A DNA stretch of 27,458 nucleotides from a virus. Below, one piece after another: positions 641 through 18,741 of the stretch (the first letter of the stretch is position 1; each line of letters starts with the position of its first letter). Under the pieces are notes generated by a model. That model searched no databases. It saw only the letters and a list, made by a program, of their open reading frames with translations, and had not been told where the DNA came from. A program made the position numbers and the translations under genes. The DNA is taken from IMG/VR virus record IMGVR_UViG_3300048589_001621, positions 1-27,458 of that record; one strand, 5' to 3'.

Positions 641-677
641 AAAAGCTGAAACGCTGAAAACTGAAACGCTGAAATCA
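641..677. repeat. GCTGAAA heptamer repeat, gap before the transposase gene
   Basis: Imperfect tandem units GCTGAAA, CGCTGAAA and ACTGAAA at 7-8 bp spacing fill the gap between the DnaA-like gene and the transposase gene. The right end overlaps the stop codon of the DnaA-like gene (675-677). The TGAAA units read on the plus strand although both flanking genes are on the minus strand. The same family recurs near 11833, 14733, 15084 and 15941. Confidence 0.85.
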
Positions 678-1289
678 GAGGGTGGCGGCGGGGGCGAGTT
701 CCTGGGCGCGGCGCTCGCAGGCCTTCACTTCGCCGGTCCAGAGGAGGACGCGGGCGGCGGCGTTGGTCCGGTCCTCTTCGCGGATGGCGCGGACCTTGGC
801 GGCAGTCCAGTAGGAGAGTTGCTCCTTGGCTTCCTCCAGCTTACGGTCGAGTGCCTTGGGGCCGAGCTGGTGGAGAGCGCCGTGGGTGGTGACATGGACG
901 AATGTTCCGCCGCCGGCATTGATGCCGGCCCTGGTGGCGCGGAGCTTCTTGACGCCGCATTTGCTGCGGGGCGCGGGGAGCTGGCGGAGGATGGGGCGCT
1001 TGCCAATCAGGCCGGTGTATTGGCGGACGAATCCGGCGTCGGAGACGAGGCGATCGCGGACGCGGTCCAGGGCGTAGTGGACGGCGTTTCGGTCGCGGCG
1101 GAAGCAGCCGCCGATGTCATCCACGGGGATGTCGGTGGTCTGATAGATGAGGGCGATGGCGGTATATCGGGCGGCACGGGCAGGCGCGGCATTGGACGGG
1201 CCGGTGATGGTGGGGACGAGGATGCCGGTTGTCTGGTGGACCTGCCGGATGCAGGCGTCCGCGGCGGGGAAGGAGGAGGTGGTGTTCAT
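675..1289 (-). CDS. Protein with DnaA domain IV-like HTH, probable DNA binder
   Basis: The protein has 204 residues. Residues 11-81 match the layout of the DnaA C-terminal duplex-DNA-binding domain: an N-terminal helix (DACIRQVHQTTGI), an Arg-rich helix (PARAARYTAIALIYQTTDIP), then VDDIGGCFRRDRNAVHYAL. The last part parallels the DnaA signature 'IG..F.gRDHsTV.hA', with Asp66 and Arg67 kept and His-Ser replaced by Asn-Ala. No AAA+ domain is present. Residues 140-204 are charged and helical (KALDRKLEEAKEQLSYW) and may oligomerise. Known family role: domain IV binds DnaA boxes. Inferred role: an origin-binding or end-binding factor, or a regulator, acting with the neighbouring transposase. The ATG at 1289 lies 5 bp past the MarR-like stop. 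An upstream extension in the same frame overlaps the MarR-like gene and looks like out-of-frame sequence, so I left it out. Confidence 0.7.
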   Translation of the reverse strand: MNTTSSFPAADACIRQVHQTTGILVPTITGPSNAAPARAARYTAIALIYQTTDIPVDDIGGCFRRDRNAVHYALDRVRDRLVSDAGFVRQYTGLIGKRPILRQLPAPRSKCGVKKLRATRAGINAGGGTFVHVTTHGALHQLGPKALDRKLEEAKEQLSYWTAAKVRAIREEDRTNAAARVLLWTGEVKACERRAQELAPAATL

Positions 1290-1293
1290 GGCT

Positions 1294-1611
1294 TCAAGCG
1301 GCGAGGATGCTGCGGACGGCTTCACGGCCGAGGAAGGTGATCTCCACGCGGATGGCGCGGCGGTCGTGCGGCTCACGGACACGACGGACGAAGTCCCGCT
1401 GCTCCAAGGTGTCGATGGTGCCGGTGAGGGCGGCGGTGGACTTGCCGGTGTGGGCGGCGATCTCGCTGATGCAGGGGTTCCCCTGGTCGTGGATAAACAG
1501 AAGGGCGCGGAGCGTGGCGAGGGTATTGAGGTCGAGCCGGGCGGCGCGGCCAAAGAGGGCGCTGATGTCCAGCGCGGTGGATTGGTCGAGGGTGGCGGTG
1601 TCCTGGTTCAT
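1294..1611 (-). CDS. MarR-like winged-helix regulator
   Basis: The 105-residue protein has a compact winged-helix pattern: ISEIAAHTGKSTAALTGTID (residues about 48-67) is the HTH. LEQRDFVRRVREPHDRRAIRVEITFLGREAV is the wing and following strand; the 'DRRA.RV..T..G' element is diagnostic for MarR proteins. It is shorter than typical MarR proteins (about 140 aa), with reduced dimerisation helices. Known family role: transcription regulators that bind palindromic operators as dimers. It lies inside the leftward early operon between the 340-aa unknown gene and the DnaA-like gene. An ATG preceded by ACAGCC fits the local start context, with no Shine-Dalgarno. It could act as a late-gene activator, as Mor or C do in Mu, but nothing here shows its target. 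Confidence 0.75.
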   Translation of the reverse strand: MNQDTATLDQSTALDISALFGRAARLDLNTLATLRALLFIHDQGNPCISEIAAHTGKSTAALTGTIDTLEQRDFVRRVREPHDRRAIRVEITFLGREAVRSILAA

Positions 1612-1659
1612 GGCTGTGGTTCGAGGTGCGCGGGTTGGATCTACTTGAGGTGTAGTATG

Positions 1660-2682
1660 TCAAAGGGCGATGGTGTCGGGATCGATGGTGCCGAGTTCGT
1701 GCGCCTCGTCGGAGGGCTGCCAGTGGGTGCCGGTGAGGGCGTGGAGGCTGGCGTAGAAGCGGGCGACGAGCTGCTTGCGCAGGGGCTCCGGCATGTCCTT
1801 GGCCTGCTCGATGGCCTGCTCCGAGTCCTCCCGGATCTGCTTGAGCGTGGCGACGTAGTCGTCAAAGGTGAGCTGGTGCGGCGGCGCGGGCGGCTCGGCC
1901 GGCGGGGCGATGCGATCGGTGGCGGCGGCGACGAGGGAGGCGAGGGTGACTTCCTCGCCGGACTTTTCCCGACGCTTGAGTTCGGCGGCGATGTGCCGAT
2001 CGGTGGCGAGATGGTCGAGCCCCAGCCCGCGCAGGGCGGTCATGTATTTGTAGGCGGCGGGCTTCTTGAGATCGGTGCCGATGGACTCCAGCCAGCCTTC
2101 GAAGCCGCCGTCCGGAATCACGTCACGCGTGACGTGATTGGCGGCTTTCCTCCCCTGCCCGCGCTTCGCGGGATCGACCATGGCGAAGACCATGTGGGCC
2201 TTGAAGCAGGCGAGGCCGAGGCCGAGCTTGTTGGCGAGGGTGAGCCTGTCGAAGGACTCGATGTGGCGTTTGATGGCGGAGCCGTGCTTTTCCAGGGATG
2301 CCTGGGCGGCCTTGAGGATGTCCGCGGGCGGCGGGGCGGCGGGAACGACTTCAGCCTTGCCGTTCTTGGCGGCGGGCGCGCGCGCTTCATCAGAGGGAGT
2401 GGACGCCTTGGCCCGCATGTCGAAGGTCCAGACGCTGAAGACCTGCTTGCGCTTCGGATCCCGGAAGAAGTCGCCGACCAGGCTTTCGATCTCCGCGCCG
2501 TCCTTGACCTGCCGGACTTTCCCGGCGGCGATGGCCCCGAAGTTCTTCTCGACCACGGCCTTGGCGGCGTGCTCCTCGCTCATGGTGCAAGAGGCGCTGT
2601 AGAGCTGCTTGAAGCCGCTCGCCAAGGACGAGCGGATCTGGGCCTTGTAGGTGTTGGCGGTGTAGCTGGTGAGGATGTTCAT
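1660..2682 (-). CDS. Hypothetical early phage protein, 340 aa
   Basis: I do not recognise the family firmly. Three parts can be seen. Residues 1-110 are mixed alpha/beta. Then comes a low-complexity Ala/Pro/Lys linker near residues 110-135. A helical part follows with KLGLGLACFKAHMVFAM, then GGFEGWLESIGTDLKKPAAYKYMTALRGLGL. That last motif resembles proteins of the DUF3102 type, where a 'W....g.s..tAy.Ym..' helix pair is typical; this is a weak similarity. The C-terminal third is charged and coiled-coil-like. Translation is probably coupled to the gene upstream, because the ATG at 2682 overlaps that gene's stop (ATGA). A perfect 24-bp palindrome (2116-2139) encodes the residues NHVTRDVI just before the GGFEGW motif. 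A role in replication, partition or host takeover is possible but not shown. Confidence 0.7.
   Translation of the reverse strand: MNILTSYTANTYKAQIRSSLASGFKQLYSASCTMSEEHAAKAVVEKNFGAIAAGKVRQVKDGAEIESLVGDFFRDPKRKQVFSVWTFDMRAKASTPSDEARAPAAKNGKAEVVPAAPPPADILKAAQASLEKHGSAIKRHIESFDRLTLANKLGLGLACFKAHMVFAMVDPAKRGQGRKAANHVTRDVIPDGGFEGWLESIGTDLKKPAAYKYMTALRGLGLDHLATDRHIAAELKRREKSGEEVTLASLVAAATDRIAPPAEPPAPPHQLTFDDYVATLKQIREDSEQAIEQAKDMPEPLRKQLVARFYASLHALTGTHWQPSDEAHELGTIDPDTIAL
2116..2139. repeat. Perfect 24-bp palindrome inside a coding region
   Basis: The sequence from AATCACGTCAC to GTGACGTGATT reads identically on both strands over 24 bp, with no central spacer, and breaks at the flanking G/G. It lies in frame within the 340-aa early gene and encodes NHVTRDVI in a linker before a conserved-looking motif. 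It could be a protein-binding site, a hairpin-forming element or an inserted mobile palindrome. Confidence 0.9.
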
Positions 2683-2858
2683 GGCTGGTCGCTGTGGCGG
2701 TGGAGGGTTTCGGACATGCGCCAGGCCTGGTCGGCGGCGCGGCGTTCGGCCTTGGCACGGCCGGCGCGGCCGGTGGCGAAGCCGAGGAGGAAGGCGAGGG
2801 CAGCGGCGACGAGGTAGATGACCAGGTCGAGGAGGAAGGCTTGTTCGGTGGGTTCCAT
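2679..2858 (-). CDS. Small single-pass membrane protein
   Basis: This is a 59-residue protein starting MEPTEQAFLLDLVIY. One strong hydrophobic segment spans about residues 8-28 (LLDLVIYLVAAALAFLLGF) and contains a small GxxxG-like spacing at its end. A basic, helical tail follows (GRAGRAKAERRAADQAW). The charge pattern predicts N-terminus outside and a basic tail in the cytoplasm. The stop overlaps the ATG of the 340-aa gene by four bases, so the two are probably co-translated. The function is unknown. Small early membrane proteins of phages often block superinfection or poison the host membrane, but no family is recognised here. I chose the ATG at 2858 because the frame upstream is proline-rich antisense-like sequence. 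Confidence 0.65.
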   Translation of the reverse strand: MEPTEQAFLLDLVIYLVAAALAFLLGFATGRAGRAKAERRAADQAWRMSETLHRHSDQP

Positions 2859-2883
2859 GGCGTGGTGGCGCGGGGTTGGATTG

Positions 2884-3108
2884 TTAGAGGCGGGCGAGTG
2901 CTTTCCGGTGGCGGCGGCGGCGGGCTTCGGCGCGCTTGGAGAAGGATTCCAGCCTCGCGTCATGGAGGGCCTGCTGTGCCTGGTCCCAGATGACCCATGC
3001 GGGATCTCCGGCGGCGTGCAGCTCGTCGGCCTTGGCGCGGAATTGGTCGGCGAGCGCGTCGCACTCGGCATCGGTCAGGAGCATCGGGGTGGGCGTGAAT
3101 TGGTTCAT
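2884..3108 (-). CDS. Small helical hypothetical protein
   Basis: This 74-residue protein starts MNQFTPTPMLLTDAEC. It is predicted to be all helical, with an acidic first half (DALADQFRAKADELHAAGDP) and a strongly basic C-terminus (KRAEARRRRHRKALARL) that could contact nucleic acid. No family is recognised. The ATG at 3108 abuts the stop of the sigma-like gene (3105-3107) and is preceded by ACAGCC, the same start context used by the MarR-like gene. Membership of the early operon suggests a small regulatory or host-interaction role, but nothing more can be said. Confidence 0.6.
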   Translation of the reverse strand: MNQFTPTPMLLTDAECDALADQFRAKADELHAAGDPAWVIWDQAQQALHDARLESFSKRAEARRRRHRKALARL

Positions 3109-3365
3109 GGCTGTTGGCGGGGCGGGGAATCGGCGAGGGCCTCGCGGAGCTTGGAGAGGGCGCGGGCGAGGACGCGGCGGCATTGGCGGCGGGACAGACC
3201 CAGGCGGGCGGCGACCTCTTCCTCAGGCCGCGGGCCGCCGGGGAGCCGGCCGCTGCGCTGGAGGTATTCCCAGGCCAGGCCATGCAGACGGCAGCGCAGC
3301 TCGGCGTGCTCCCTTTCAAGGGCTTCGAGTTCGGAGGCGGTCAGCTCTGGTTCTTCGGCGGGCAT
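3105..3365 (-). CDS. Sigma-70 region 4-like HTH protein
   Basis: The protein has 86 residues. Residues 48-77 (EEEVAARLGLSRRQCRRVLARALSKLREAL) fit the sigma-70 region 4 helix-turn-helix, whose usual form is 'eEIA..LGiS...V...l.RAL.kLR'. The preceding part (ELEALEREHAELRCRLHGLAWEYL) is a helical segment. No region 2 (core and -10 binding) is present, so it cannot be a full sigma factor. Region-4-only phage proteins can redirect RNA polymerase or recruit it to phage promoters. As the second gene of the early operon it is a good candidate for an early-to-late switch factor. It could also be a plain DNA-binding regulator of the LuxR/sigma-4 superfamily. The ATG at 3365 lies 15 bp after the RHH stop. 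Confidence 0.65.
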   Translation of the reverse strand: MPAEEPELTASELEALEREHAELRCRLHGLAWEYLQRSGRLPGGPRPEEEVAARLGLSRRQCRRVLARALSKLREALADSPPRQQP

Positions 3366-3379
3366 GGGTGGCGGGAGAA

Positions 3380-3553
3380 TCAGGCGATCTTGCCGAGGTG
3401 GTTGCGCAGGGCCTTGCGGATCTCCTTGGACCGATCCGTGTCGGCGGCCCGGACGCGATGATCGAGGAGCTTGAGGACTTCGATGGGGAGCCACACGGCA
3501 ACGAGGGTGGACTCGCCCTTGGTGACTGCTCCGCGTTGTTGTTTCTTGGCCAT
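3380..3553 (-). CDS. Ribbon-helix-helix DNA-binding protein (leftward)
   Basis: I translated this by hand. It has 57 residues, starts MAKKQQRGAVTKGEST, and ends in a TGA at 3380-3382. A single beta strand (STLVAVWLP) is followed by two helices, IEVLKLLDHRVRAADTD and RSKEIRKALRNHLGKIA. This is the Arc/CopG/MetJ ribbon-helix-helix layout, with a basic N-terminal tail. RHH dimers place a two-stranded ribbon in the major groove and often bind tandem sites 10-12 bp apart. It is the first gene of the leftward operon, 14 nt downstream of the predicted transcription start. It sits beside a 10-bp-spaced direct repeat, so autoregulation is the simplest reading. It probably corresponds functionally to a lysis-lysogeny repressor or an Arc-like anti-repressor. 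Confidence 0.8.
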   Translation of the reverse strand: MAKKQQRGAVTKGESTLVAVWLPIEVLKLLDHRVRAADTDRSKEIRKALRNHLGKIA

Positions 3554-3573
3554 GGTTCGTGTCGGTGTCGGGT

Positions 3574-3601
3574 GTTATACTGAGTTTTACTGAGTAGGCA
3601 A
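3574..3601 (-). promoter_or_regulatory. Leftward early promoter with 10-bp direct-repeat operator
   Basis: On the minus strand a -35-like TTGCCT (3596-3601) and a -10-like TATAAC (3574-3579) are separated by 16 bp. Between them, on the plus strand, TACTGAG occurs twice (3578-3584 and 3588-3594), with TTT between the copies, giving an exact 10-bp period. One helical turn places both copies on the same DNA face and inside the promoter, the arrangement expected for cooperative repression by an RHH protein. A second short tandem, GTGTCG twice (3559-3570), lies in the leader. Confidence 0.6.
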
Positions 3602-3610
3602 CAAAATCTT

Positions 3611-3639
3611 TTGGCGTTTGGTTTTCCGGGGTGTATAAA
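3611..3639 (+). promoter_or_regulatory. Rightward promoter for the second RHH gene
   Basis: TTGGCG (3611-3616), a 17-bp spacer and TATAAA (3634-3639) make a good sigma-70-type promoter. Transcription would start near 3646-3648, at or just before the GTG start of the next gene, so the mRNA would be leaderless or nearly so. The promoter is back-to-back with the leftward one. Confidence 0.55.
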
Positions 3640-3647
3640 TTCGGCGC

Positions 3648-3950: not shown

Positions 3951-3984
3951 ATCCATCGGGAATTTTCGGATTCTCGGCCCCAGG

Positions 3985-4020: not shown

Positions 4021-4097
4021 GACAGGCTAGAGTCGCCGCTACGGGCCGGGCCTTTGGGAGCTAGACCACGGGAGGCGAAACGGGTAGATGCCGGGGT

Positions 4098-5283: not shown

Positions 5284-5295
5284 AGGCACGCCGGA

Positions 5296-5810: not shown

Positions 5811-6320
5811 ATGACTCCGACGACGAAGCCATTCTGGCAAAGCAAGACGGTGTGGGTGCAGGTGCTGGCGGTGCTCAGCATGTTGATTCCCGCGGTGGGT
5901 GCCTGGGTGGCATCCAACCCGGTCGAGTTCGTGGCCGTGCTGGCCGCGGTCAACACCGTGGTGCGCTTCGCGACCAGCGGGAAGGTTTCGATTTTCCAGG
6001 ACGACAGTGCCAATGATAGCGGAGGGAAATCCGGCGGCGGCTCCGGGGGGAGCTGGCTGCTGGCCATGATGGCGACGGCAGCAGGAGGGCTTTCCATGGC
6101 TGGTGCGCTCCTGCTGTCGTCGTGCGTGGTCGGCGTGGATGACGCGGGCAACTACTCGCTGCGGCCGGATCCGAACACGGTGGACGTGGCGCTCAAGTAT
6201 CTGATCCGCCACGAAGATGATGACGCGAAGTCCGGGATGACGCGCTGGACCTATCACGACCCCGCGACCGGCGAGCTGATCCCCGAGGAGGACTATGCGG
6301 CCTGGGGAATCAAGCCGTGA
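5811..6320 (+). CDS. Holin-like protein with lipoprotein-like C-terminal half
   Basis: From ATG 5811 the protein has 169 residues; an in-frame ATG at 5796 would add five. Residues 13-33 (TVWVQVLAVLSMLIPAVGAW) and 37-55 (PVEFVAVLAAVNTVVRFAT) are two transmembrane helices. They resemble small phage membrane proteins of holin type that carry a 'N.v.RF.T...i' ending. After a Ser/Gly/Asp linker, residues 82-105 form a third hydrophobic stretch ending LSMAGALLLSSC, which looks like a lipobox. The rest (VGVDDAGNYSLRPDPNTVDV onward) is soluble and acidic. Gene order (before the amidase) supports a lysis role. The second half could be made separately from the internal ATGs near 6065 as an outer-membrane spanin-like lipoprotein. 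That is inference. Confidence 0.6.
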   Translation: MTPTTKPFWQSKTVWVQVLAVLSMLIPAVGAWVASNPVEFVAVLAAVNTVVRFATSGKVSIFQDDSANDSGGKSGGGSGGSWLLAMMATAAGGLSMAGALLLSSCVVGVDDAGNYSLRPDPNTVDVALKYLIRHEDDDAKSGMTRWTYHDPATGELIPEEDYAAWGIKP

Positions 6321-6353
6321 AGTGCCGAGTGATCAGTGAGCAGTGATCAGTGG
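6318..6353. repeat. GTGATCA heptamer repeat before the endolysin gene
   Basis: TGAAGTGCCGAGTGATCAGT continues into GTGAGCAGTGATCAGTG, an imperfect (GTGATCA)n array. The TGA stop of the holin-like gene is its first triplet. A 22-bp stretch is identical to the start of the array at 15586-15607, 9.3 kb away. Confidence 0.85.
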
Positions 6354-6367
6354 CAGAAATTTCAGAG

Positions 6368-6431
6368 AGGGAGGGACGGGGCTTGGTGACCGAGTGACTG
6401 CCGGAGTGCAGATCCCAAAGCCCTCCCTCCT
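6368..6431 (+). other. Potential hairpin in the endolysin leader
   Basis: AGGGAGGG plus GGGCTT (6368-6384, three bases bulged) can pair with AAGCCC plus TCCCTCCT (6418-6431), across a loop of about 33 nt. It ends 17 bp before the endolysin ATG. The purine-rich left arm resembles a Shine-Dalgarno but would be hidden in the stem. It could tune endolysin expression; there is no T tract. Confidence 0.35.
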
Positions 6432-6448
6432 GCTCTAACAAGACGACC

Positions 6449-7132
6449 ATGAAGAATCCATCCATCACCCTGGATCCCGGCCACGGCGGGAAGGACAGTG
6501 GCGCGGTCGGGCCAAGGGGCCTGCGCGAGAAGGACGTGGCGCTGGAGGTGTGCCGCCGGCTGGGCATGATGCTGGCGGCCTCCGGGGTGGACGTGACGCT
6601 GACCCGCGGGGACGACCGCTTTCTGGAACTGCACGAGCGGGCGGCGGTGGCCAACAAGGCTGGGACGGACCTGTTCCTTTCGATCCACTGCAACTCCGGG
6701 CCGCCGGGACAAGGCGATGGCTTCGAGGTTTTCACCACTCCGGGCAAGACGGCGGCGGATGCCTTCGCCACGGATCTGTTTCTGGAATACGCGCGGATGT
6801 TCCCGAACAAGCGGAAGCGCGTGGACGACCGCGATGGCGATCCGGACAAAGAGGCCAACTTCGCGGTGATCCGGCTGGCGAAAATGCCGGCCGCGCTCTT
6901 CGAGCTGGAGTTCATCCACACCGGGCCGGGCGAGGCATTCCTGGAGAACTCCCTGAATCATATCTCCATGGCCGAAGCGCTGTGCGACGGGGTGCTGCGG
7001 CACCTGCGCATCTCTGCCGGACCATCCAAGCCGGCTGAAGCCGGCGCTCCATCCACGCCGCCGAAGCGGACGCTGAAGCAGCAGCTGCGCGCGCTGTCCA
7101 CCGAACTCGCCAACCTGGCCGAGGAAGCATGA
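6449..7132 (+). CDS. N-acetylmuramoyl-L-alanine amidase endolysin (Amidase_3)
   Basis: The 227-residue protein is an Amidase_3-type zinc hydrolase that would cut the amide bond between N-acetylmuramic acid and the stem peptide. Visible family motifs are LDPGHGGKDSGAVG (zinc ligand His12), REKDVAL (ligand Glu27), FLSIHCN (ligand His80) and LFELEFIHT, where Glu152 takes the place of the catalytic Glu in the usual 'vElgF'. The domain fills residues 4-185. A Pro/Ala linker and a helical C-terminal tail (TLKQQLRALSTELANLAEEA) follow; the tail may oligomerise. No signal peptide or cell-wall-binding domain is visible, so release should depend on the holin-like protein upstream. The ATG is preceded by ACGACC, as in several other genes here. 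Part of the linker is encoded by a palindromic repeat (7028-7050). Confidence 0.92.
   Translation: MKNPSITLDPGHGGKDSGAVGPRGLREKDVALEVCRRLGMMLAASGVDVTLTRGDDRFLELHERAAVANKAGTDLFLSIHCNSGPPGQGDGFEVFTTPGKTAADAFATDLFLEYARMFPNKRKRVDDRDGDPDKEANFAVIRLAKMPAALFELEFIHTGPGEAFLENSLNHISMAEALCDGVLRHLRISAGPSKPAEAGAPSTPPKRTLKQQLRALSTELANLAEEA
7028..7050. repeat. GCCGGC-TGAA-GCCGGC repeat inside the endolysin gene
   Basis: AAGCCGGCTGAAGCCGGCGC followed by TCC contains two GCCGGC hexamers that are self-complementary and pair across TGAA. It encodes KPAEAGAP in the linker of the amidase. I recall near-identical strings as dispersed repeats in Verrucomicrobiota and Planctomycetota genomes; that memory is not checked. 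Confidence 0.6.
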
Positions 7133-7356
7133 GCGAAGGCCGGGACATCTACGCCGCGGTGAAGGGCGACATGGTGGCGCTGGAGGATCTGCCGGACGGC
7201 GACCTCCGGCAGTTGCTGGGTCACCTCGGCCGCAAGGGCAAGACCTGCGGCAACGCCGGCCGGATCTGGGGCGAGGCGATCGCGGAGGCGACGGTGCGGT
7301 TCATGAAAGCCAAGACTCAAGACCTGAAGACTCAAGACTCAAGACCGGAAGCATGA
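7129..7356 (+). CDS. Small hypothetical protein with repeat-encoded tail
   Basis: The 75-residue protein starts MSEGRDIYAAVKGDMVAL. It has an acidic turn (LEDLPDGDLRQLLGHLGRKG) and a helix (IWGEAIAEATVRFMKAK). The final residues KTQDLKTQDSRPEA come from an AAGACTC heptamer array (7312-7344), so the tail is probably not functional. The ATG overlaps the amidase stop by four bases, and its own stop overlaps the next ATG by four. It therefore sits in a tightly coupled chain at the lysis-to-packaging border, where Mu-type phages carry small poorly conserved genes. No family is recognised. Confidence 0.6.
   Translation: MSEGRDIYAAVKGDMVALEDLPDGDLRQLLGHLGRKGKTCGNAGRIWGEAIAEATVRFMKAKTQDLKTQDSRPEA
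7312..7344. repeat. AAGACTC heptamer repeat at a gene end
   Basis: AAGACTC, AAGACCTG, AAGACTC, AAGACTC and AAGACCG follow each other at 7-8 bp spacing. The array lies within the last codons of the 75-aa gene and stops 9 bp before the next ATG. A related short array (ACAAGAC, TTCAAGACAC) is at 18487-18511. Confidence 0.8.
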
Positions 7357-10119: not shown

Positions 10120-10260
10120 ATGCCTTTAAAATCGATTTTAAAGGGGGCTTCTCCGCGGAGCGCCCCGACACCCGCGATTTCCCCGCCGACGCGCGGGAGG
10201 GGCTTGCAGCGCCATGCACGGGGCCACTCCGGCGGCCCTCAAGAAGGAGGTGAGGCATGA
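10120..10260 (+). CDS. Doubtful small ORF between terminase and portal
   Basis: An ATG at 10120 opens a 46-codon frame that ends in a TGA overlapping the portal ATG by four bases. The product (MPLKSILKGASPRSAPTPAI, then SPPTRGRGLQRHARGHSG...) is basic and Pro/Gly/Arg-rich, without a recognisable fold, and its first codons are the 22-bp palindrome. A Shine-Dalgarno-like AAGGAGG near its end serves the portal. It may be only a transcribed spacer with palindromes, or a leader peptide that couples translation to the portal. I favour the spacer. Confidence 0.3.
   Translation: MPLKSILKGASPRSAPTPAISPPTRGRGLQRHARGHSGGPQEGGEA
10123..10166. repeat. 22-bp perfect palindrome plus a second dyad
   Basis: CCTTTAAAATC and GATTTTAAAGG (10123-10144) form a perfect 22-bp palindrome, strikingly AT-rich in a GC-rich genome. 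Just after it, GGGGC (10144-10148) pairs with GCCCC (10162-10166) around the self-complementary CTCCGCGGAG (10151-10160). The block lies 5 bp after the terminase stop. It looks like an inserted repeat or a processing/attenuation site; no T tract follows. Confidence 0.85.
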
Positions 10261-11864
10261 GGCCCTTCACCGGCATTCTGGACCCGTCCGGGCGGGTGGT
10301 TTCGGCGGAGCGCGTGAGGCTGGACAAGCAGACGCGGTTCAACCCGCTGGCGGACTGGACGCCGGACGTGCTGACGCGGCAGCTATCCGCCTGGGCGCGG
10401 GGGGACATCAAGGAGCTGGCGTGGGTGATGGAGTGGCTGGAAACCCACGACGACACGATCAGCGCGGTGGCCCCGAAGGCGAAGAGCGCGGTGTCCCGAC
10501 ACGGCTTCGACACGGTGCTGGTGGACGAGATCCCGGAAGGGCTGGAACAACTGGCGGAAGACCAGCGCGGGGTGCTGCGGAATTTCTACGACGCGATCGA
10601 GGCCCGCCATGCCATCGACCTGGACATGGAGGGCGGCTTCCGACTGCTGGTGTCCCAGGTGATGGACGGGCACGGGAAGGGCTACGCGACGCATCACCTG
10701 GTGTGGAAGCGGACCGCGGCCGGCCTGCGGCTGGAGACGGTGCAGGTGCCGCTGTGGTTCTGGGAGGCGACGGAAGGCGCGCTGCGGTTCCTGCCGGGAA
10801 TCGGCGCGAGCCGGGGAATCGACCGGAACGAGCTGGGCGGACCGTCCGCGTGGATGGTGGCACGCGGGCGCGGGGTGATGACGGCCTGCGCGATCGCGCG
10901 GATGTTCAAGCAGATCCCGCTGCAAGACTGGCTGACCTATTGCGACCGCCACGGGATGCCCGCCTTCGTCGGCAAGACGGCGGCGGCGAAGGGCAGCAGC
11001 GGGTGGAACGATCTCTACGACGCGGTGACGAACATCGGCAGCGAGTTCGGCGCGGTGATGAACACGGGCGACAGCATCGACGTGCTGAACCTGACGAGCC
11101 AGGGCGAGCTGCCTTACGAAAAGCTCGTGGACCGGATGGACCGGGCCTGCGTGCTGCTGTGGCGCGGCGGCGACCTGGGGACGCTGTCCCGCGACAGCGG
11201 CGTGGGGGCGAATCCCCAGGGCGAGGAAACCGACGATCTGGACGCGGACAACGCGGCCTGGGTGAGCGAGACGCTGGACCGGAACCTTTCCCGGCGGGTG
11301 CTGGACTACCACTTCGGCAGCGGCGTGCCGCAGCTCGCGAAGCTGGTGCTGCGGACCAAGACCCGCGAGAACATCACCCAGGATCTGGCCGTCCTCCAGG
11401 CCTTCAAGGGCATGGGCGAGCGGGTCTCGCGGAGCTGGGCGGCCGGGAAGTTCAACGTGGTGCTGGCGGACCAGGGCGACGAGGCGCTGGGCGACACGGC
11501 CGCGCCGCCGGCAACGGTGCGGGCCGCGCCGGCCGCGCCGGTGGACGCGCGCAACATCTCCGCGGACTACCGGGCGCTGCTGGAGACATCCCTGGCGAAG
11601 GCGGTGGGCGTGCGGACGGCGGTGCTGGCCCCCATCCAGCCGGTGATCGACCGGCTGGCGGCGGCCTCGCGGGATGCCCGCATGGACGACGCGGCCTTCC
11701 TGCAACTCGTGGAAGAGGCGGCGGAGTCGCTGCCGGAACTCTTCGACCCGGCCCAGGCGGCCGAGCTGGCTGACGAGCTGGAGGCGGCGCTGGGGACGGC
11801 GGTGCTCCAGGGGACGCGGGACGCTCTGAGGGAAAACGCTGAAACGCTGAAAACTGAAAGCTGA
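10257..11864 (+). CDS. Portal protein, Mu gp29-like (DUF935)
   Basis: The protein has 535 residues and matches the DUF935/Mu gp29 portal layout. It has an N-terminal arm (TRQLSAWARGDIKELAWVME), a core with 'FRLLVSQVMDGHGKGYATHH' and 'VWKRTAAGLRLETVQVPLWF', and the conserved-looking LQDWLTYCDRHGMPAFVGK. A helical crown-and-stem part (NIGSEFGAVMNTGDSIDVLN) follows, and a C-terminal helical extension (residues 440-535) ends near FLQLVEEAAESLPELFDP. Twelve copies would form the DNA-entry ring at the head vertex and bind the terminase. The ATG at 10257 has a good Shine-Dalgarno (AAGGAGG) and overlaps the stop of the doubtful small ORF. Its final codons, NAETLKTES, are read from the heptamer repeat that follows, so the very C-terminus is probably repeat-derived. 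Confidence 0.88.
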   Translation: MRPFTGILDPSGRVVSAERVRLDKQTRFNPLADWTPDVLTRQLSAWARGDIKELAWVMEWLETHDDTISAVAPKAKSAVSRHGFDTVLVDEIPEGLEQLAEDQRGVLRNFYDAIEARHAIDLDMEGGFRLLVSQVMDGHGKGYATHHLVWKRTAAGLRLETVQVPLWFWEATEGALRFLPGIGASRGIDRNELGGPSAWMVARGRGVMTACAIARMFKQIPLQDWLTYCDRHGMPAFVGKTAAAKGSSGWNDLYDAVTNIGSEFGAVMNTGDSIDVLNLTSQGELPYEKLVDRMDRACVLLWRGGDLGTLSRDSGVGANPQGEETDDLDADNAAWVSETLDRNLSRRVLDYHFGSGVPQLAKLVLRTKTRENITQDLAVLQAFKGMGERVSRSWAAGKFNVVLADQGDEALGDTAAPPATVRAAPAAPVDARNISADYRALLETSLAKAVGVRTAVLAPIQPVIDRLAAASRDARMDDAAFLQLVEEAAESLPELFDPAQAAELADELEAALGTAVLQGTRDALRENAETLKTES

Positions 11865-11867
11865 AAT
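11833..11867. repeat. GCTGAAA heptamer repeat at the portal gene end
   Basis: Units CGCTGAAA, CGCTGAAA, ACTGAAA and GCTGAAA at 7-8 bp spacing run through the last portal codons. The portal stop TGA (11862-11864) is part of the last unit. The protease start follows 10 bp later. Confidence 0.85.
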
Positions 11868-11877
11868 TTTGAAGACG

Positions 11878-13077
11878 ATGAAACGGCACTTTCTAACAGG
11901 GCACATCCTGACCGCGCTGAACACGGCGGCGGCGGCGGTGATGGACGGGATCAACTCGGTGGCCGGCGTGTGGTCGGAAATCTCCCTGGCCGAGGGCGAG
12001 AAGGAGAGCCGCTATGTCTTCACCAAATACGGCGAGTATCCGGTGGAGATGTTGATCAACGGGCGGGTGCAGACCGTCACCCAGGTGATCGACCGGGAGG
12101 CCGCGGAGCTGATCGCGTCCAACTACCAATCCCTGACCGGGAAGCTGGCGATGTTCTTCCGCGGGATCCCGATCTACGAGGGCCACGCCGACGATCCGGA
12201 CTGGCTGAAGGAGAACCCCGGTCACAAGCCGGCGGCGGTGGGACGGATCAAGGACATCGCGCCCGGCGCGGAGGGCATCGAGGTCCGCACCGTTTTCAAT
12301 TCCAAGGGCGTGGCGCTGCTTTCCGGCGAGGCCCCGGAATACAGCGGCCACTCGCCACGGTGGCGAATGCGCGAGATCCCCGGCCGGCCGGGCTGCTACC
12401 GCCCCTTCATGGTGTGGAGCGACGCGCTGACGAACTCCCCCAACATCGCGGACTCCGTGATGACCGCCATCAACCAATCTCCCACGACCGCGGCCGGTGC
12501 CACGGGCGAAACCGAGAAACCAACCGACGAAATGAAACTGACCGCTGAAGCGCTCAAGGCTCTCGGGTTCGCGCCCGACGCCATGCCCACCGCAGACGAG
12601 ATCTCCGCCGCCATCGTGAAGATGCTGGGGGAGAAGACCACCGCCGAGACCGAGAAGGTCACCGCGGTCGAGAACCTCACCGCCGCGAACACGAAAGTGA
12701 CGCGGCTGGAAACCGAGCTGTCCACCCTGCGCGAGAGCGGCGTGGTGACCGCGCTGAACACCGCCGTGGCCGCCGGTCGCATCACGGAGGCCGACAAGCC
12801 GAAGTGGGAGAAGCTGCTCAAGGCCGACTTCGAAACCGCGAGCGGCATGCTGGCGGAGCTCAAGCCGGTGGACGCGCTGAACACCGCCAATCGCCTGGGC
12901 AACCTGGGCGAGCGCCGGGGCGAGGGCGCGCCGGTGAAAGGCAGCGCCGCCGCGATGCAGGACGCCGTCCACGCCTACGCGAAGGAGAAGGGAATCGACG
13001 TCTCCAACACCGCGGGCTGGAACCGCGCCTGGAAGGAGTGCTCGGAGGCCAAGCCCGAACTCTTCGCCCGCGGCTGA
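11878..13077 (+). CDS. Head maturation protease, Mu I-like, with fused scaffold
   Basis: The protein has 399 residues. Residues about 25-190 resemble the Mu I protease: YPVEMLINGRVQTVTQVIDR, KLAMFFRGIPIYEGHADDPD, GRIKDIAPGAEGIEVRTVFN and EYSGHSPRWRM, ending in LTNSPNI. The 'G.v.dl.....Gi...v.....g...l......y..SPrw' pattern is typical. From residue 219 a coiled-coil-rich scaffold follows (EKVTAVENLTAANTKVTRLE), then VTALNTAVAAGRITEADKPK, the helical C-terminus common to these proteins. It would guide prohead assembly and then cleave scaffold and capsid proteins. I chose ATG 11878 over TTG 11869. A nested start at 12532 probably makes the scaffold alone. Confidence 0.85.
   Translation: MKRHFLTGHILTALNTAAAAVMDGINSVAGVWSEISLAEGEKESRYVFTKYGEYPVEMLINGRVQTVTQVIDREAAELIASNYQSLTGKLAMFFRGIPIYEGHADDPDWLKENPGHKPAAVGRIKDIAPGAEGIEVRTVFNSKGVALLSGEAPEYSGHSPRWRMREIPGRPGCYRPFMVWSDALTNSPNIADSVMTAINQSPTTAAGATGETEKPTDEMKLTAEALKALGFAPDAMPTADEISAAIVKMLGEKTTAETEKVTAVENLTAANTKVTRLETELSTLRESGVVTALNTAVAAGRITEADKPKWEKLLKADFETASGMLAELKPVDALNTANRLGNLGERRGEGAPVKGSAAAMQDAVHAYAKEKGIDVSNTAGWNRAWKECSEAKPELFARG
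12532..13077 (+). CDS. Nested scaffold protein, in-frame within the protease gene
   Basis: An in-frame ATG at 12532 would give a 181-residue scaffold (MKLTAEALKALGFAPDAM...) without the protease domain. The sequence before it, AACCAACCGACGAA, closely matches the CA-rich leaders ahead of real starts here (for example AACCAACCACGACC before 18781). The first codons ATGAAACTGA also match the next gene at 13124. The start lies exactly at the domain border. Mu I/Z and lambda C/Nu3 use the same nested design, so this is a well-founded inference, not proof. Confidence 0.65.
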   Translation: MKLTAEALKALGFAPDAMPTADEISAAIVKMLGEKTTAETEKVTAVENLTAANTKVTRLETELSTLRESGVVTALNTAVAAGRITEADKPKWEKLLKADFETASGMLAELKPVDALNTANRLGNLGERRGEGAPVKGSAAAMQDAVHAYAKEKGIDVSNTAGWNRAWKECSEAKPELFARG

Positions 13078-13649: not shown

Positions 13650-14651
13650 ATGAAATATCTCCCAATCTTCCTCACCCTGACGGGTGCGACCTCGGCCAGC
13701 GTCACGCCCGTGATGGGCGAGATCACGGCGATCAACACCAGCATGAACTACGCGGGCTCCCTCGCGTCCGACGTGCAGGGCTACCTGGCCGGCCTGCCGG
13801 CGACCGACGAGGAGAAGCTGCTCGACATGCTGTTCCCACCGATCGAGACGAACGACTTCTTCCAGTTCCCGAAAATGGACGACGAGTTCTTCCTGACGGA
13901 GGCGGACGACAGCGACATCCGCGCGATCGGGGCCAGCTTCAAGAAGGTGCAGTTCCGCGGCAGCGTGGTGACCGACAGCACCCAGCAGAAGGGGCTGACC
14001 ATGACGGTGGATCACAAGACGCTGCGGAAGGTGAACGGCAAGATCGTCCCCGGCTGGGAGAACGACTACGCCGCGCACCTGAAGAGCCGGCTGATCCGCG
14101 CGGAGATCGTCCGCGGCATCGCGCTGATCGACGCGGCGGCCACGAACGTGGGCGTGGTGTGGAACGCCGCGGGGAATCCCGATGGCGACCTGCGGGCGAT
14201 GGCCCAGCTCGGCCGCACGGCGACCGGGATGCTCCAGACCCACCTGGTGATGGGGAACGCCGCGCAGCAGCTCCGCCAGGACAGCTACGAGGCGGCGGCC
14301 CGCGCGAACCACGTGATGGCGAACCACGCCAGCTACACGATGGAGCAACTGGCCAGCTACGTGGGCGTCAAGAAGGTGATCATCGAAGACGGGATCAAGC
14401 AGCTCAAGAAGGGTGCCGCGAAGGTGGATCGCCTGGGACTGGCCTGTTACACCTACAACGCGACGGAGAGCCCGGTGATCGGCGACCCCAGCAACATCAA
14501 GCGGGCCTGGAACCAGACCCCCTTCGACGGGCGCTGGGCGGTGGCGATCCGGCCGGGGACGGTGAGCACGGAGATCACCGTGTTCCATGAGAGCAAGCTC
14601 TTCATCCCGATCACCACCGGGATCCGCAAGATCACTCCTGCCGCGGCCTGA
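13650..14651 (+). CDS. Major capsid protein
   Basis: The 333-residue product is the likely HK97-fold major capsid protein. Visible parts are a long helical/E-loop-like N-terminal half (EEKLLDMLFPPIETNDFFQF, DSDIRAIGASFKKVQFRGSV), a spine-helix candidate (YAAHLKSRLIRAEIVRGIAL), helices with QLGRTATGMLQTHLVMGNAA, and a beta-rich C-terminus (DGRWAVAIRPGTVSTEITVF). Length, order (after decoration protein, before the gp35/gp36-like genes) and the strong hairpin right after the gene fit a highly expressed capsid protein. I could not tie it to Mu T by a clear motif. Its N-terminus, MKYLPIFLTLTGATSAS, is again hydrophobic and signal-like, as in the gene before it. The leader is CA-rich and lacks a Shine-Dalgarno. 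Confidence 0.8.
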   Translation: MKYLPIFLTLTGATSASVTPVMGEITAINTSMNYAGSLASDVQGYLAGLPATDEEKLLDMLFPPIETNDFFQFPKMDDEFFLTEADDSDIRAIGASFKKVQFRGSVVTDSTQQKGLTMTVDHKTLRKVNGKIVPGWENDYAAHLKSRLIRAEIVRGIALIDAAATNVGVVWNAAGNPDGDLRAMAQLGRTATGMLQTHLVMGNAAQQLRQDSYEAAARANHVMANHASYTMEQLASYVGVKKVIIEDGIKQLKKGAAKVDRLGLACYTYNATESPVIGDPSNIKRAWNQTPFDGRWAVAIRPGTVSTEITVFHESKLFIPITTGIRKITPAAA

Positions 14652-14679
14652 CACTTCGCGAGGCATCTGCCTTCGATCC

Positions 14680-14721
14680 GGATGGCGGGCGGGTTTCTTG
14701 GGTTTTACCCGGCCGCCATCC
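14680..14721 (+). terminator. Strong hairpin after the major capsid gene
   Basis: GGATGGCGG (14680-14688) pairs perfectly with CCGCCATCC (14713-14721), and GGGT (14691-14694) pairs with ACCC (14707-14710) inside. A T-rich 12-nt loop joins them. It starts 29 bp after the capsid stop. There is no U tract after the stem (TCTCCAAGG), so it may be a partial terminator or an mRNA-stabilising structure that raises capsid over downstream products. Confidence 0.65.
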
Positions 14722-14732
14722 TCTCCAAGGCA

Positions 14733-14764
14733 AAAGCTGAAACGCTGAAAACTGAAAGCTGAAA
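14733..14764. repeat. GCTGAAA heptamer repeat after the capsid gene
   Basis: Units GCTGAAA, CGCTGAAA, ACTGAAA and GCTGAAA fill the space from the capsid hairpin to 3 bp before the next ATG. This is the same order of units as at 11833. Confidence 0.85.
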
Positions 14765-14766
14765 TC

Positions 14767-15093
14767 ATGAACAAGAGCGAGATCATCGAGAAACTGAACG
14801 CCCAGGGCGTGACCTTCGACCCGGCGCAGAGCAAGGCCGAGCTGGCCGCGCTACTGGGAACCACGGAGGGAAAGCCTGGCGACGGGACCGCGAGCAACGG
14901 CACCGGCGCAGAGCCGCCCGCCGCAGGGCCGCCGGATCCCGACGAAGAAACGCCGGCGGATCCTGAGCCGGCCGACGCGGAGATGAAGGAGCTGGTGGCC
15001 GCGAAGGTGGCCGCGGGCCTGACCTTCGAGCAGGCGCTGGAGGTGATCTCGCGGCAGCGCGAGGAAGACGCGGCCCGCGGAGTCGAAAGCTGA
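14767..15093 (+). CDS. Mu gp35-like head protein with HeH/SAP-like motif
   Basis: The 108-residue protein starts MNKSEIIEKLNAQGVTFD, then PAQSKAELAALLG. This 'K.eii..L...Gi.fd...sKaeL..lL' motif is a HeH/SAP/LEM-like helix-extended-loop-helix that binds DNA in other proteins. FluMu/Mu gp35 proteins carry such a motif at the same place, right after the capsid gene. A disordered Pro/Asp/Glu-rich linker (residues 35-75) is followed by a helix (MKELVAAKVAAGLTFEQALE). A small head-completion or DNA-contact role is inferred. The final residues ARGVES and the stop lie within the next heptamer array. The start codon follows a heptamer array, with no Shine-Dalgarno. Confidence 0.65.
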   Translation: MNKSEIIEKLNAQGVTFDPAQSKAELAALLGTTEGKPGDGTASNGTGAEPPAAGPPDPDEETPADPEPADAEMKELVAAKVAAGLTFEQALEVISRQREEDAARGVES

Positions 15094-15124
15094 AAGTTGA
15101 AAGCTGAAACTTGAAACGCTGAAA
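15084..15124. repeat. GCTGAAA/GTTGAAA heptamer repeat
   Basis: Six units (GAAAGCT, GAAAGTT, GAAAGCT, GAAACTT, GAAACGCT, GAAAC) run from inside the gp35-like gene's last codons to 3 bp before the next ATG. The stop TGA (15091-15093) is part of a unit. This is the longest array of the family in the window. Confidence 0.88.
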
Positions 15125-15126
15125 CG

Positions 15127-15585
15127 ATGAGCTGGATCACGCTGAGCGCCGGGCACCTGAAGAGCGCGATGACTTCGAAAGAGGTCACCGACTTCGGCCG
15201 CACCGTCACGGACGGGGAGCCGGAGGACCGCATGGTGCCGGTGCTGGCGGACCTGACGCAGGAGATCCGCGGGATGATCGCGAGCTGGACGCAGAACACG
15301 CTGTCCGCGGACACCACGACCATCCCGGAAAGCTTCAAGACCCGCGCGCTGGCGATCGCGAGATACCGGCTGCTGATCACCATCCCCGGCTACAACCCCG
15401 GCGAGGGCCGGAAGCTGGAATACGAGAAGGCCGAAACCTTCTTCCGGGACGTGGCGCGCGGGATCATCCGGCCGGAAGCGGCGGAGGATGCCGTGACGCC
15501 GGACGTGCCGAGCGAGAAGCCGGCCGGGGCGGAATGGTGCGCGCCCGGATCCAGGACGGGGCGGGAGCGGATGAGCGGGCTGTGA
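15127..15585 (+). CDS. Head-tail connector, Mu gp36-like (DUF1320)
   Basis: The 152-residue protein starts MSWITLSAGHLKSAMTSKEV. The helical core (VPVLADLTQEIRGMIASWTQ, then IPESFKTRALAIARYRLLIT) and the closing LEYEKAETFFRDVARGIIRP fit the DUF1320/gp36 family. In these proteins a helical adaptor ring binds below the portal, with 'R..a..ia.yrL......' and 'y..A...l..ia.G.i.l' motifs. The order after the gp35-like gene is the same as in Mu. The tail (residues 118-152) is Pro/Gly/Arg-rich and disordered-looking. The first 40 residues contain a helix and an extended loop typical of the family. Confidence 0.75.
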   Translation: MSWITLSAGHLKSAMTSKEVTDFGRTVTDGEPEDRMVPVLADLTQEIRGMIASWTQNTLSADTTTIPESFKTRALAIARYRLLITIPGYNPGEGRKLEYEKAETFFRDVARGIIRPEAAEDAVTPDVPSEKPAGAEWCAPGSRTGRERMSGL

Positions 15586-15631
15586 TGAAGTGCCGAGTGA
15601 TCAGTGATCAGTGATCAGTGAGAAGTGAAAG
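15586..15631. repeat. GTGATCA heptamer repeat, second copy
   Basis: TGAAGTGCCGAGTGATCAGT continues as exact GTGATCA units (three in a row), then GTGAGAAGTGAAAG. The first 22 bp are identical to 6318-6339. It lies between the stop at 15585 and the ATG at 15642. Confidence 0.9.
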
Positions 15632-15641
15632 ACAGAAGACG

Positions 15642-15965
15642 ATGAACGGACTCCACCAACAACTCGCGGCGAAGCGGCGGCAGATCGCGGCTGACGAGGC
15701 CACGGTGGCGGCGGATGAACATTTGCACGCGACACACCAGGCGAAGGAACGCCTGCCGCGGCTGCGCGCCGAGGCCGCGACGCTGGAGACCGACATCGAG
15801 CTGGGCGAGGCGGCGCACCATCAGATGACGACCGCGCTCTCCAACATGCGGACCATCGGCAACGGCGACGGCTTGCTCTCGCAGGCCATCACCGAGCAGA
15901 AGACCGCCATCTGGTGGCTGCGCGATCACCTGGGGGAACCTGAAACGCCGGAAGCTGAAAGCTGA
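15642..15965 (+). CDS. Small coiled-coil hypothetical protein
   Basis: The 107-residue protein starts MNGLHQQLAAKRRQIAADEA. It is helical throughout the first 70 residues, with heptad-like spacing (HATHQAKERLPRLRAEAATL, then ETDIELGEAAHHQM), so a coiled coil is likely. The second part has SNMRTIGNGDGLLSQAITEQ and an aromatic helix, TAIWWLRDHLG. No family is recognised. It sits between the connector and the F-like minor head gene and could be a head-completion or tail-chaperone-type protein. The open frame extends upstream to a GTG in the heptamer array; ATG 15642 is the natural start. Its last residues (PETPEAES) and stop come from the next array. Confidence 0.6.
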   Translation: MNGLHQQLAAKRRQIAADEATVAADEHLHATHQAKERLPRLRAEAATLETDIELGEAAHHQMTTALSNMRTIGNGDGLLSQAITEQKTAIWWLRDHLGEPETPEAES

Positions 15966-15969
15966 AACG
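15941..15969. repeat. GCTGAAA heptamer repeat before the F-like gene
   Basis: TGAAACGCCGGAAGCTGAAA and GCTGAAACG run from the last codons of the coiled-coil gene up to the ATG at 15970. The stop TGA (15963-15965) is part of a GCTGAAA unit, as at 11833 and 15084. Confidence 0.8.
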
Positions 15970-18011: not shown

Positions 18012-18478
18012 GCGCGAAGATCCAAAGGCTGAAGGCGGCGATCCGCGGGCACCTGGTGGACACCGGGACGTGGGAGGAGGGCGCGGTGCTGATCGAGCGG
18101 CAGGCGGACTTCTGGAACGACGCGGCCATCGCGATGGGCGGCGCGGTCCACGGGGCCATCCTGGTCATCGGCGTGGCCAGCGGGGACGCGACCGAGGAGG
18201 ATAGCCTGGAAAGCGACCTGACGCTGCCGGTGACCATCCTCGCCCAGGCGGTGGTGACTCCGGGCCAGCAACCGGAAGAGGCGCTGTGGGAGGCCACGGT
18301 GCGGGCACTGCACAACTTCATCCCGACCTACGAGGGCGACGCCGGCCACTGGACGCGGCGGCTGCGCTACCAGGGCTTCACGGACGCGGAGGAGCTGCTG
18401 ATCGGCCATTACGAGGTGGCGCAGCTCGCGCGGCAGACGGTCTTCAAGGCGCGCTTCTCGCTGGAGGCGGACTACTGA
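18008..18478 (+). CDS. Probable tail terminator protein
   Basis: The 156-residue protein starts MSAKIQRLKAAIRGHLVDTG. The alpha/beta pattern (AVLIERQADFWNDAAIAMGG, then HGAILVIGVASGDATEEDSL, VTILAQAVVTPGQQPEEALW) resembles minor tail/terminator proteins. In those an N-terminal helix is followed by beta strands, and an 'E...w......L' helix closes the fold. The position before the tube gene is that of tail terminators in siphoviruses. It probably caps the tail tube and joins it to the head. A Shine-Dalgarno (GGGAGGAGG) precedes the ATG, which overlaps the previous stop by four bases. No signature motif makes the assignment certain. Confidence 0.6.
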   Translation: MSAKIQRLKAAIRGHLVDTGTWEEGAVLIERQADFWNDAAIAMGGAVHGAILVIGVASGDATEEDSLESDLTLPVTILAQAVVTPGQQPEEALWEATVRALHNFIPTYEGDAGHWTRRLRYQGFTDAEELLIGHYEVAQLARQTVFKARFSLEADY

Positions 18479-18486
18479 GCGGGACG

Positions 18487-18511
18487 CAAGACACAAGACT
18501 TCAAGACACAT
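18487..18511. repeat. Short AAGAC-type heptamer array
   Basis: AAGACAC, AAGACTTC, AAGACAC at 7-8 bp spacing lie between the terminator gene stop and the next ATG. It is related to the AAGACTC array at 7312-7344. Confidence 0.65.
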
Positions 18512-18722
18512 GACCCCGAACCTACCGATGAACACGAACGACGAACACGAAACCGCCGCCGAGCCCCGCAACGTGGTGGTCCGCGCGCTGAAAGACCGCA
18601 CGAAGCTGGGCAAGGCCATCGTGGCCGCCGGGCGCGTGGACTTCCGCCTGACCCAGACCGAAGCCACTGCCGCGGCGGCCGCGGGACTGGTGGAGATCGA
18701 GGGGGTGGAGTTCGAAGGCTGA
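18510..18722 (+). CDS. Small hypothetical protein before the tail tube gene
   Basis: From ATG 18510 the protein has 70 residues; ATG 18528 would remove six. After an acidic N-terminus (NTNDEHETAAEPR) there is a compact alpha/beta part: NVVVRALKDRTKLGKAIVAA, then GRVDFRLTQTEATAAAAAGL and VEIEGVEFEG. The pattern recalls short phage proteins where 'v.f.lt...a..a...G.v...' follows a strand, but I cannot name the family. Its last codons and stop lie in a GAAGGCT heptamer array. It could be a minor tail or chaperone component. I am unsure of function but fairly sure that it is coding. Confidence 0.55.
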   Translation: MTPNLPMNTNDEHETAAEPRNVVVRALKDRTKLGKAIVAAGRVDFRLTQTEATAAAAAGLVEIEGVEFEG

Positions 18723-18741
18723 AGGCTGAAGGCTGAGATTT
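18714..18741. repeat. GAAGGCT heptamer repeat
   Basis: Three exact GAAGGCT units (18714-18734) and a diverged GAGATTT follow each other without gaps. The stop codon TGA (18720-18722) is part of the array. It is a variant of the GCTGAAA family. Confidence 0.88.

Follow-up and report, generated by a model that had tools for sequence, protein, structure and literature searches.

The window analysed here, a 27,458-nucleotide stretch of the virus record IMGVR_UViG_3300048589_001621, contains ten short tandem arrays with units of 7 or 8 nt, nearly all of them exactly intergenic. These heptamer arrays are real, non-random and located at gene borders. From their format and distribution we suggest, with a probability of about one half, that they are REP-like dispersed heptad elements, tolerated and perhaps selected in phages whose hosts are poor in Shine-Dalgarno (SD) signals, where they would be unstructured spacers or leaders of cistrons. 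The host of the window phage probably belongs to the Verrucomicrobiota. Relatives were searched with the portal protein, because the capsid protein gave none in the phage collection and the viral contigs. Portal relatives were found in three genome contigs; these are MAGs and bear the labels Verrucomicrobiaceae, Akkermansiaceae and Lentisphaerae.

Heptamer arrays at the gene borders of the window

The exact heptamer GCTGAAA was found 17 times in the window, compared with 2.75 expected matches (s.d. 1.9; at most 8 in 100 shuffles), and 16 of the 17 are on the plus strand. TRF returned 16 rows with a period of 7, 8, 14 or 15, and 0-2 such rows in 20 first-order Markov shuffles. When the gene calls of the window were used, nine of the ten arrays were no more than 10 nt from a gene edge, whereas 2000 random placements gave a mean of about 1.1-1.15 and a maximum of 6. 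A preliminary description of this DNA had placed GCTGAAA-type arrays at gene borders and had named a random location as what would speak against it; the border location was confirmed and is non-random. Four arrays were added to those described: two of AGTGATC (6322 and 15590), one of CAAGACT (7311) and one of CAAGACA/CAAGACTT (18483). The arrays at 14733, 15085, 15940 and 641 end 1-3 nt upstream of a start codon. It had also been claimed that four arrays supply the stop codon of the preceding gene, and all four stops (11862-11864, 15091-15093, 15963-15965 and 18720-18722) indeed lie inside arrays. An Rfam search of the window returned nothing.

Table 1. The ten arrays of the window and the genes next to them
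Array	Position	Strand	Relation to genes
F1 element AAAA-GCTGAAAC-GCTGAAA-ACTGAAAC-GCTGAAA	640..674	+	occupies the gap of leftward genes 675-1289 and 1-636; ends 3 nt upstream of ATG
F2 element GTGCCGA-GTGATCA-GTGAGCA-GTGATCA-GTGGCAG	6322..6356	+	directly 3' of the stop of gene 5811-6320
CAAGACT array	7311..7345	+	3' end of predicted ORF 7129-7356; possible ATG downstream at 7353
F1 element	11834..11866	+	encodes the stop and last residues (about ENAETLKTES) of the portal gene; protease ATG (11878) 11 nt past the array
F1 element	14733..14764	+	2 nt upstream of the ATG of gene 14767-15093
F1-like array, 5 units	15085..15125	+	encodes the stop of gene 14767-15093; next ATG 1 nt past the array end
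F2 element GTGCCGA-GTGATCA-GTGATCA-GTGATCA-GTGAGAA	15590..15628	+	3' of the stop of 15127-15585
F1-like array, 4 degenerate units	15940..15967	+	encodes the stop of gene 15642-15965; ends 2 nt before ATG 15970
AAGAC-family array GACGCAA-GACACAA-GACTTCAA-GACACAT	18483..18514	+	between gene end 18478 and gene start 18528
GAAGGCT array	18714..18736	+	encodes the stop of gene 18528-18722

Format, dispersal and turnover of the elements

The elements are about 28-36 bp (roughly 35) in size, have fixed ends and include the formats F1 and F2. F1, seen at about 55 sites, has the consensus AAAN-(GCTGAAAN)x4 with sharp ends and mostly four units at a spacing of 8,8,8 or 8,7,8; the format search demanded at least four units, and more than four were present in just 16 of 96 cases. 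In the F2 consensus, GTGCCGA-(GTGAKCA)n-GTGGAAR, the first and last units are distinct from the inner ones.

The array at 640..674 is identical at 35 of 35 positions to an array in another phage, L038. Window positions 636-685, which include the whole stop-to-start gap 637-674, match L038 6011-6060 with 94% identity over 50 bp, and no further similarity between the two phages was detected outside this match. The array at 6322 is identical over 32-34 nt to several dispersed chromosomal copies in the Verrucomicrobiota genome G067, and the one at 15590..15628 has 32 nt in common with the host locus L136. An F2 18-mer was found exactly in 6 of 142 order members (none with a reversed-pattern control), with 12 exact copies in G067; an F2 19-mer was present in nine viral stretches, and F2 copies of about 40 bp are dispersed, with dozens of matches, in 14 of 18 congener genomes. 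The exact AAGAC-family pattern had no match in the viral contigs.

In the favoured reading the arrays would be copies of small elements of four to five heptads each, several families of which may be in circulation in Verrucomicrobiota-type genomes and in the phages belonging to them. We infer from the long identities between otherwise unrelated contigs that these elements spread as whole units and do not grow in place like microsatellites. The alternative of ordinary microsatellites, where slippage makes 7-8 nt repeats anywhere and selection clears the coding sequence, is unlikely. It would fit the period of the intergenic arrays, which is overwhelmingly 7 or 14, and heptanucleotides are, as far as Mrazek (2007) is cited in PMC4679880, the commonest long simple sequence repeats in many prokaryotes. 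Against it stand the fixed size, the distinct end units, the identities of 34-50 bp among otherwise unrelated contigs and a polarity that depends on position. Y1 transposases (PF01797) were detected in 18 of 18 congeners, including four with no F2 match, and with PF01797 present with or without F2, no link of a RAYT or mobiliser to F2 was seen among them. The one orthologous site compared, between G067 and G164 at about 70% identity, gave no clean empty site for an element insertion and differs also in the C-terminus and the leader.

At orthologous borders the relatives carry another heptamer family or no array. In several relatives arrays are few or absent, and therefore no benefit of the arrays is essential. 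The portal relatives had a density of 2.49 arrays per intergenic kb, compared with 0.09 for arbitrary chromosome (500 kb) from order members. One sampled MAG carries a heptamer family of its own, with a density of 0.70 per intergenic kb, so array density cannot simply be put down to phages. Such arrays are present in hosts and related phages, where the preliminary description had proposed a tandem-repeat search. It is most improbable that the arrays are recombination linkers with which phages exchange gene modules at borders. The same arrays do occur in unrelated phages and the patchy genes 14767-15093 and 15642-15965 have flanking arrays, but no excess was observed at synteny breaks (10/63 non-conserved versus 22/122 conserved adjacencies, p = 0.84), and this reading was rejected.

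Polarity, stop codons and RNA structure

Across the phages, the ratio of purine-rich to pyrimidine-rich arrays was 48:5 just after stops and 7:33 just before starts; an independently fetched set gave 35:6 and 11:15. In the portal relatives alone the polarity was not significant (7:3 versus 4:9, p = 0.10), and the rule was not observed in the host chromosomes, where the near-stop arrays among the F2 sites were 5 R and 5 Y. In the window, the array at 640..674 reads TTTCAGC in the sense of the flanking leftward genes and is thus pyrimidine-rich ahead of a start, and the array at 14733..14764, purine-rich yet ahead of a start, is an exception to the rule. The uniform TGAAA reading of all GCTGAAA arrays on the plus strand, described previously, holds in the window but not in related phages, and a tie of a fixed orientation to replication was not supported, as orientation in other phages follows the gene border. 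A replication-strand cause was rejected, since both orientations were found inside phages whose genes run one way.

The supply of stops could be the rationale of the arrays, which would then be kept as TGA-bearing 7-mers that halt readthrough in all frames. Four window genes end within arrays and some purine-rich arrays of other phages overlap the stop, as this would predict. The explanation is very unlikely, since many border families have no sense-strand stop word, as TGTCTTC, CATCCTC and CTCACTTC at the same kind of border. In the first set, the polarity was kept for arrays starting at least 3 nt past the stop (17:4 versus 7:33 before starts) and when stop words were present on both strands (12:1 versus 1:7); the latter subset, too small for replication in the second set, gave 2:1 versus 5:4 there. 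Stop content may contribute to the polarity; the subset with no stop word in the replication set was 4:4 near stops. The stop codons supplied by the arrays look like a by-product of array position, and would arise because elements insert at or over the preceding ORF end, as described for REP elements.

Complementary array pairs in some phages fold into intergenic hairpins. Gaps with at least two arrays had a mean fold z of -4.1 versus -1.35 for gaps with no array. Arms from the same gap paired better than arms swapped with other contigs (mean -20.7 versus -10.2 kcal/mol), and when arms were swapped within a contig, native pairing was better in 23 of 32 cases. Together with the polarity, this would be expected if arrays were arms of intergenic mRNA hairpins, with the purine-rich arm following a stop and the complementary pyrimidine-rich arm preceding the next start. 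Such hairpins would keep cistrons apart, stabilise 3' ends or place stop and start close to each other, and the window arrays would then be solitary arms. We regard this reading as rather unlikely. Inverted array partners are absent from the window, where the arrays are single and the array-only gaps unstructured (fold z about -2 to +2, near shuffles). The polarity was also kept for arrays lacking a partner of at least 9 nt, and the portal relatives gave the non-significant ratios above.

As dispersed elements, the arrays would persist in untranslated gaps of phage genes with one end against an ORF end. Their main candidate role would be that of a structure-free spacer or leader suiting SD-poor translation, and a second, inverted copy, once gained, would give an intergenic hairpin instead. 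SD enrichment over shuffles was not seen in the window and was slight in both the relatives and the hosts. Directly behind an array, start regions were predicted to be more open (0.644 versus 0.564, p = 9e-5), which may be a consequence of composition. It is conceivable, and proposed here tentatively, that a common border grammar exists among phages of Verrucomicrobiota-type bacteria, in which the placement is conserved but not the sequence. Many heptamer families with no relation to each other, purine-rich after the stop and pyrimidine-rich before the start, would then be exchangeable RNA elements organising polycistronic mRNAs.

Relation to known repeat systems

Intergenic heptamer arrays have so far been reported oddities, with one unit per genome in the best-described case. 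The window-type arrays are a multi-family, fixed-format and phage-rich class, with a polarity that can be measured relative to stops and starts and with hosts of little SD signal, and they open a concrete test of cistron delimitation and translation start in these phyla. For annotation, caution is advised, since in such phages a repeat can encode a short C-terminal tail and set the position of the stop. On heptamers in Verrucomicrobia we found no paper, save a mention in a Thiomargarita paper.

The STRR of heterocystous cyanobacteria are heptamer tandem repeats between genes. The window also has heptamer tandem arrays in intergenic DNA, a likeness in unit length only; the host phylum and the units are other ones, and STRR are not fixed-format elements. 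Membership in STRR, with which the preliminary description had compared the heptamers, was not supported: the portal relatives are in Verrucomicrobiota-type MAGs and not in cyanobacteria, judged from the labels of three contigs, and the units form fixed-format dispersed elements. The earlier interpretation by stop codons and STRR is only partly supported.

TAACTGA direct repeats are known from marine Beggiatoaceae, some cyanobacteria and Bacteroidetes (MacGregor 2015, PMC4679880); most of them, about 147 of 170, point forward to the start codon, and one inverted case is described. Both systems are short intergenic heptamer arrays (2-6 units for TAACTGA), often near a start codon, which the four window arrays named above abut. 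In both, some arrays overlap the upstream ORF end, an RBS is rare and the forward translation is stop-rich. However, TAACTGA is a single unit, whereas many unit families in a fixed format of 4-5 units are found here; the polarity before starts is opposite in most phages, and inverted pairs are common in some. No TAACTGA array was among the tandem repeats of the window. With the long simple sequence repeats of prokaryotes, as far as Mrazek et al. (2007) is reported in PMC4679880, the arrays share the favoured period of 7, and by TRF against shuffles they are tandem runs longer than chance, but they have composite units, sharp ends and a dispersal between genomes.

The REP/REPIN sequences comprise the GTAG and CGTC families and are RAYT-associated (PMC3733652, PMC3116915); GTAG REPs are reported in Verrucomicrobia. 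Unlike these, the elements described here have neither a GTAG/CGTC tag in their consensus sequences nor a palindromic stem, and single elements are heptad arrays. Like them, they are dispersed intergenic repeats of 20-40 bp at ORF 3' ends, as singlets or inverted doublets. F2 in G067 and in congeners is such a multi-copy extragenic element, and REP elements, too, can provide a flanking ORF with its stop codon (PMC3733652).

Tandem arrays at the gene borders of the window

In the 27,458-bp IMG/VR virus record, 39 genes were called with a simple home-made codon-usage caller; those in 1-3553 run leftward as a short block, and a long structural block runs rightward. Relatives of the portal protein were found in six IMG/VR contigs (53-63% identity) and in three MAG contigs (54-61%). 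Since the MAGs are labelled Verrucomicrobiaceae, Akkermansiaceae and Lentisphaerae, the host of the phage is likely to lie in or near the Verrucomicrobiota.

The preliminary description had proposed that GCTGAAA arrays mark gene borders and supply stop codons. The excess of GCTGAAA is real, with 17 occurrences against 2.75 expected, and heptamer-type tandem repeats in the window far exceed those in shuffled sequences. The siting at borders was borne out, as 9 of the 10 window arrays lie at most 10 nt from a gene edge, and all four stop codons encoded by arrays were confirmed. Four further arrays with other units fit the same picture (Table). Repeat units are translated into C-terminal tails at 11834-11864, where by sequence and gene call the array encodes the last portal residues (about ENAETLKTES), and at 15940-15965 (ETPEAES). 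Two small genes, 14767-15093 and 15642-15965, are each flanked by arrays on both sides; the former is patchy among the compared phages and the latter has no relative in them.

Table. Annotated structural genes and additional arrays in the window
Feature	Window position	Location	Basis
Portal	10257-11864	rightward block	PHROGs
Head maturation protease	11878-13077	rightward block	PHROGs
Major head protein	13650-14651	rightward block	PHROGs, weak
AGTGATC array	6322		
AGTGATC array	15590		
CAAGACT array	7311		
AAGAC-type array	18483		

Copies and turnover in phages and hosts

When about 55 GCTGAAA sites were aligned with their flanks, sharp ends common to all were observed: AAAN is followed by four GCTGAAA-type units with a free base between them, and then by unique DNA. 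Four units were present in 68 of 96 chains fetched with a pattern demanding at least four, and only 16 were longer; the spacings were 8,8,8 or 8,7,8. Copies of the AGTGATC family start with GTGCCGA, and most end with GTGGAAR or GTGAAAG. An 18-mer of this family had 25 exact matches in 6 of 142 order members and none with the reversed-pattern control, a 19-mer was present in 9 viral stretches, and copies of about 40 bp occurred in 14 of 18 congeners of the bacterial genome G067. The copy at 6322 is identical to chromosomal copies of G067 over 32-34 nt, and the copy at 641 to one in the compared locus L038 over 35 nt. The L038 match spans the entire stop-to-start gap of the 641 array (50 bp, 94%); no protein match was found between the window and L038, and the other DNA matches were further heptamer arrays only. 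The arrays are discrete elements, and the simplest reading of the shared copies is that whole elements were copied, which would make them mobile.

In G067 (locus L128), a dispersed repeat of about 100 bp was seen at G067:C13:137020-137627 and about 15 other places. It adjoins AGTGATC-family copies at several places, lies on either side of a Y1 (RAYT-like) transposase gene and is probably a REP-type family of this Verrucomicrobiota genus. As for a RAYT linked to the AGTGATC family itself, Y1 transposases (PF01797) occurred in all 18 congeners, those with and those lacking a family match.

Among the portal relatives, which were picked regardless of repeat content, 38 of 49 intergenic tandem arrays had a period of 7 or 14. 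Their units vary (ACCAATG, CAATCAT, TGTCTTC, CATCCTC, GTGAGAA and others), and the heptamer-array phenomenon extends beyond GCTGAAA. Depending on the phage, orthologous borders (at the protease, decoration and capsid genes and those after them) carry a GCTGAAA array, a CATCCTC or GGTCA array, or a plain CA-rich leader; in L043/L044, L016 and L018 arrays are essentially absent. The portal-relative phages had 2.49 arrays per intergenic kb; over 500 kb of arbitrary order-member stretches the density was 0.09. The MAG G002 has its own heptamer family (0.70 per intergenic kb). This family, CGAACGTCGAACATC and its complement, is abundant and partly in inverted pairs on contigs L161, L162, L164, L165, L167 and L170.

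Polarity and folding of the arrays

On the sense strand, arrays just past stops are purine-rich and those just ahead of starts pyrimidine-rich. Counted at same-strand borders for all phage arrays, the purine-rich to pyrimidine-rich ratio was 48:5 near stops versus 7:33 near starts (p=3e-13). The polarity was also found in non-GCTGAAA families (32:4 vs 4:21), with a single vote per locus (25:3 vs 3:16), for arrays starting at least 3 nt beyond the stop (17:4 vs 7:33), for units with stop words on both strands (12:1 vs 1:7) and in unpaired arrays. Borders without arrays had no such bias. A second set, fetched later with two other units, was weaker in the same direction (35:6 vs 11:15, p=4e-4; p=0.019 minus both query families), and its stop-word subsets were non-significant or too small. 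Since the polarity was non-significant in the portal relatives alone (p=0.10) and not seen at host AGTGATC-family sites, it is a tendency in many phages and no law. In the window, the arrays at 6322, 18714 and, when read on the strand of its leftward genes, 641 follow it; 14733 is an exception.

Complementary arrays at both ends of one gap, able to fold into long stems, were found in L036, L038, L040, L042, L063/L064, L087 and L106, and the true arms paired better than swapped arms. The mean fold z was -4.1 in gaps with at least two arrays versus -1.35 in gaps without arrays. No significant folding was predicted for the array-only gaps of the window, whose z lay at about -2 to +2. More structure was present in 6321-6448 (z -2.3) and in 14652-14766 (z -3.2), the latter because of a GC-rich hairpin that follows the capsid gene.

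This predicted RNA hairpin (14652-14732) occupies the same place in L040, L045, L047, L049, L016, L018 and others; in three relatives it sits after the small gene downstream of the capsid gene. Its common layout is GGACTCCGGTCCGTGC-stem-GCATCACCGGG, with double-sided changes in 13 of 18 predicted pairs across 10 phages, and it may terminate transcription or stabilise the 3' end.

Proposed role and known systems

Upstream of starts in the sampled hosts and these phages, the Shine-Dalgarno signal was slight (0.13-0.21 vs 0.13-0.21 in shuffles). Start regions with an array immediately upstream were predicted to be more open (0.644 vs 0.564). Because of these two observations, we favour the reading that the arrays are REP-like heptad elements, dispersed and settling in the gaps between cistrons, where they may serve as spacers or leaders free of structure or, if paired, as hairpins. 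An element landing at or over an old ORF end would supply the stop codon; REP termini, too, are reported to supply stops to flanking ORFs (PMC3733652). A role of the arrays as recombination linkers was also tested and was unsupported.

The likeness to the cyanobacterial STRR, named in the preliminary description, is confined to unit length. REP/REPIN sequences are nearest in behaviour, but their defining tag and stem have no counterpart here. The nearest described case is the TAACTGA arrays of Beggiatoaceae. Unlike the arrays here, these consist of a single unit and point mostly forward toward the start; like them, they lie near starts and are RBS-poor, and they have been proposed as post-transcriptional sites (PMC4679880).
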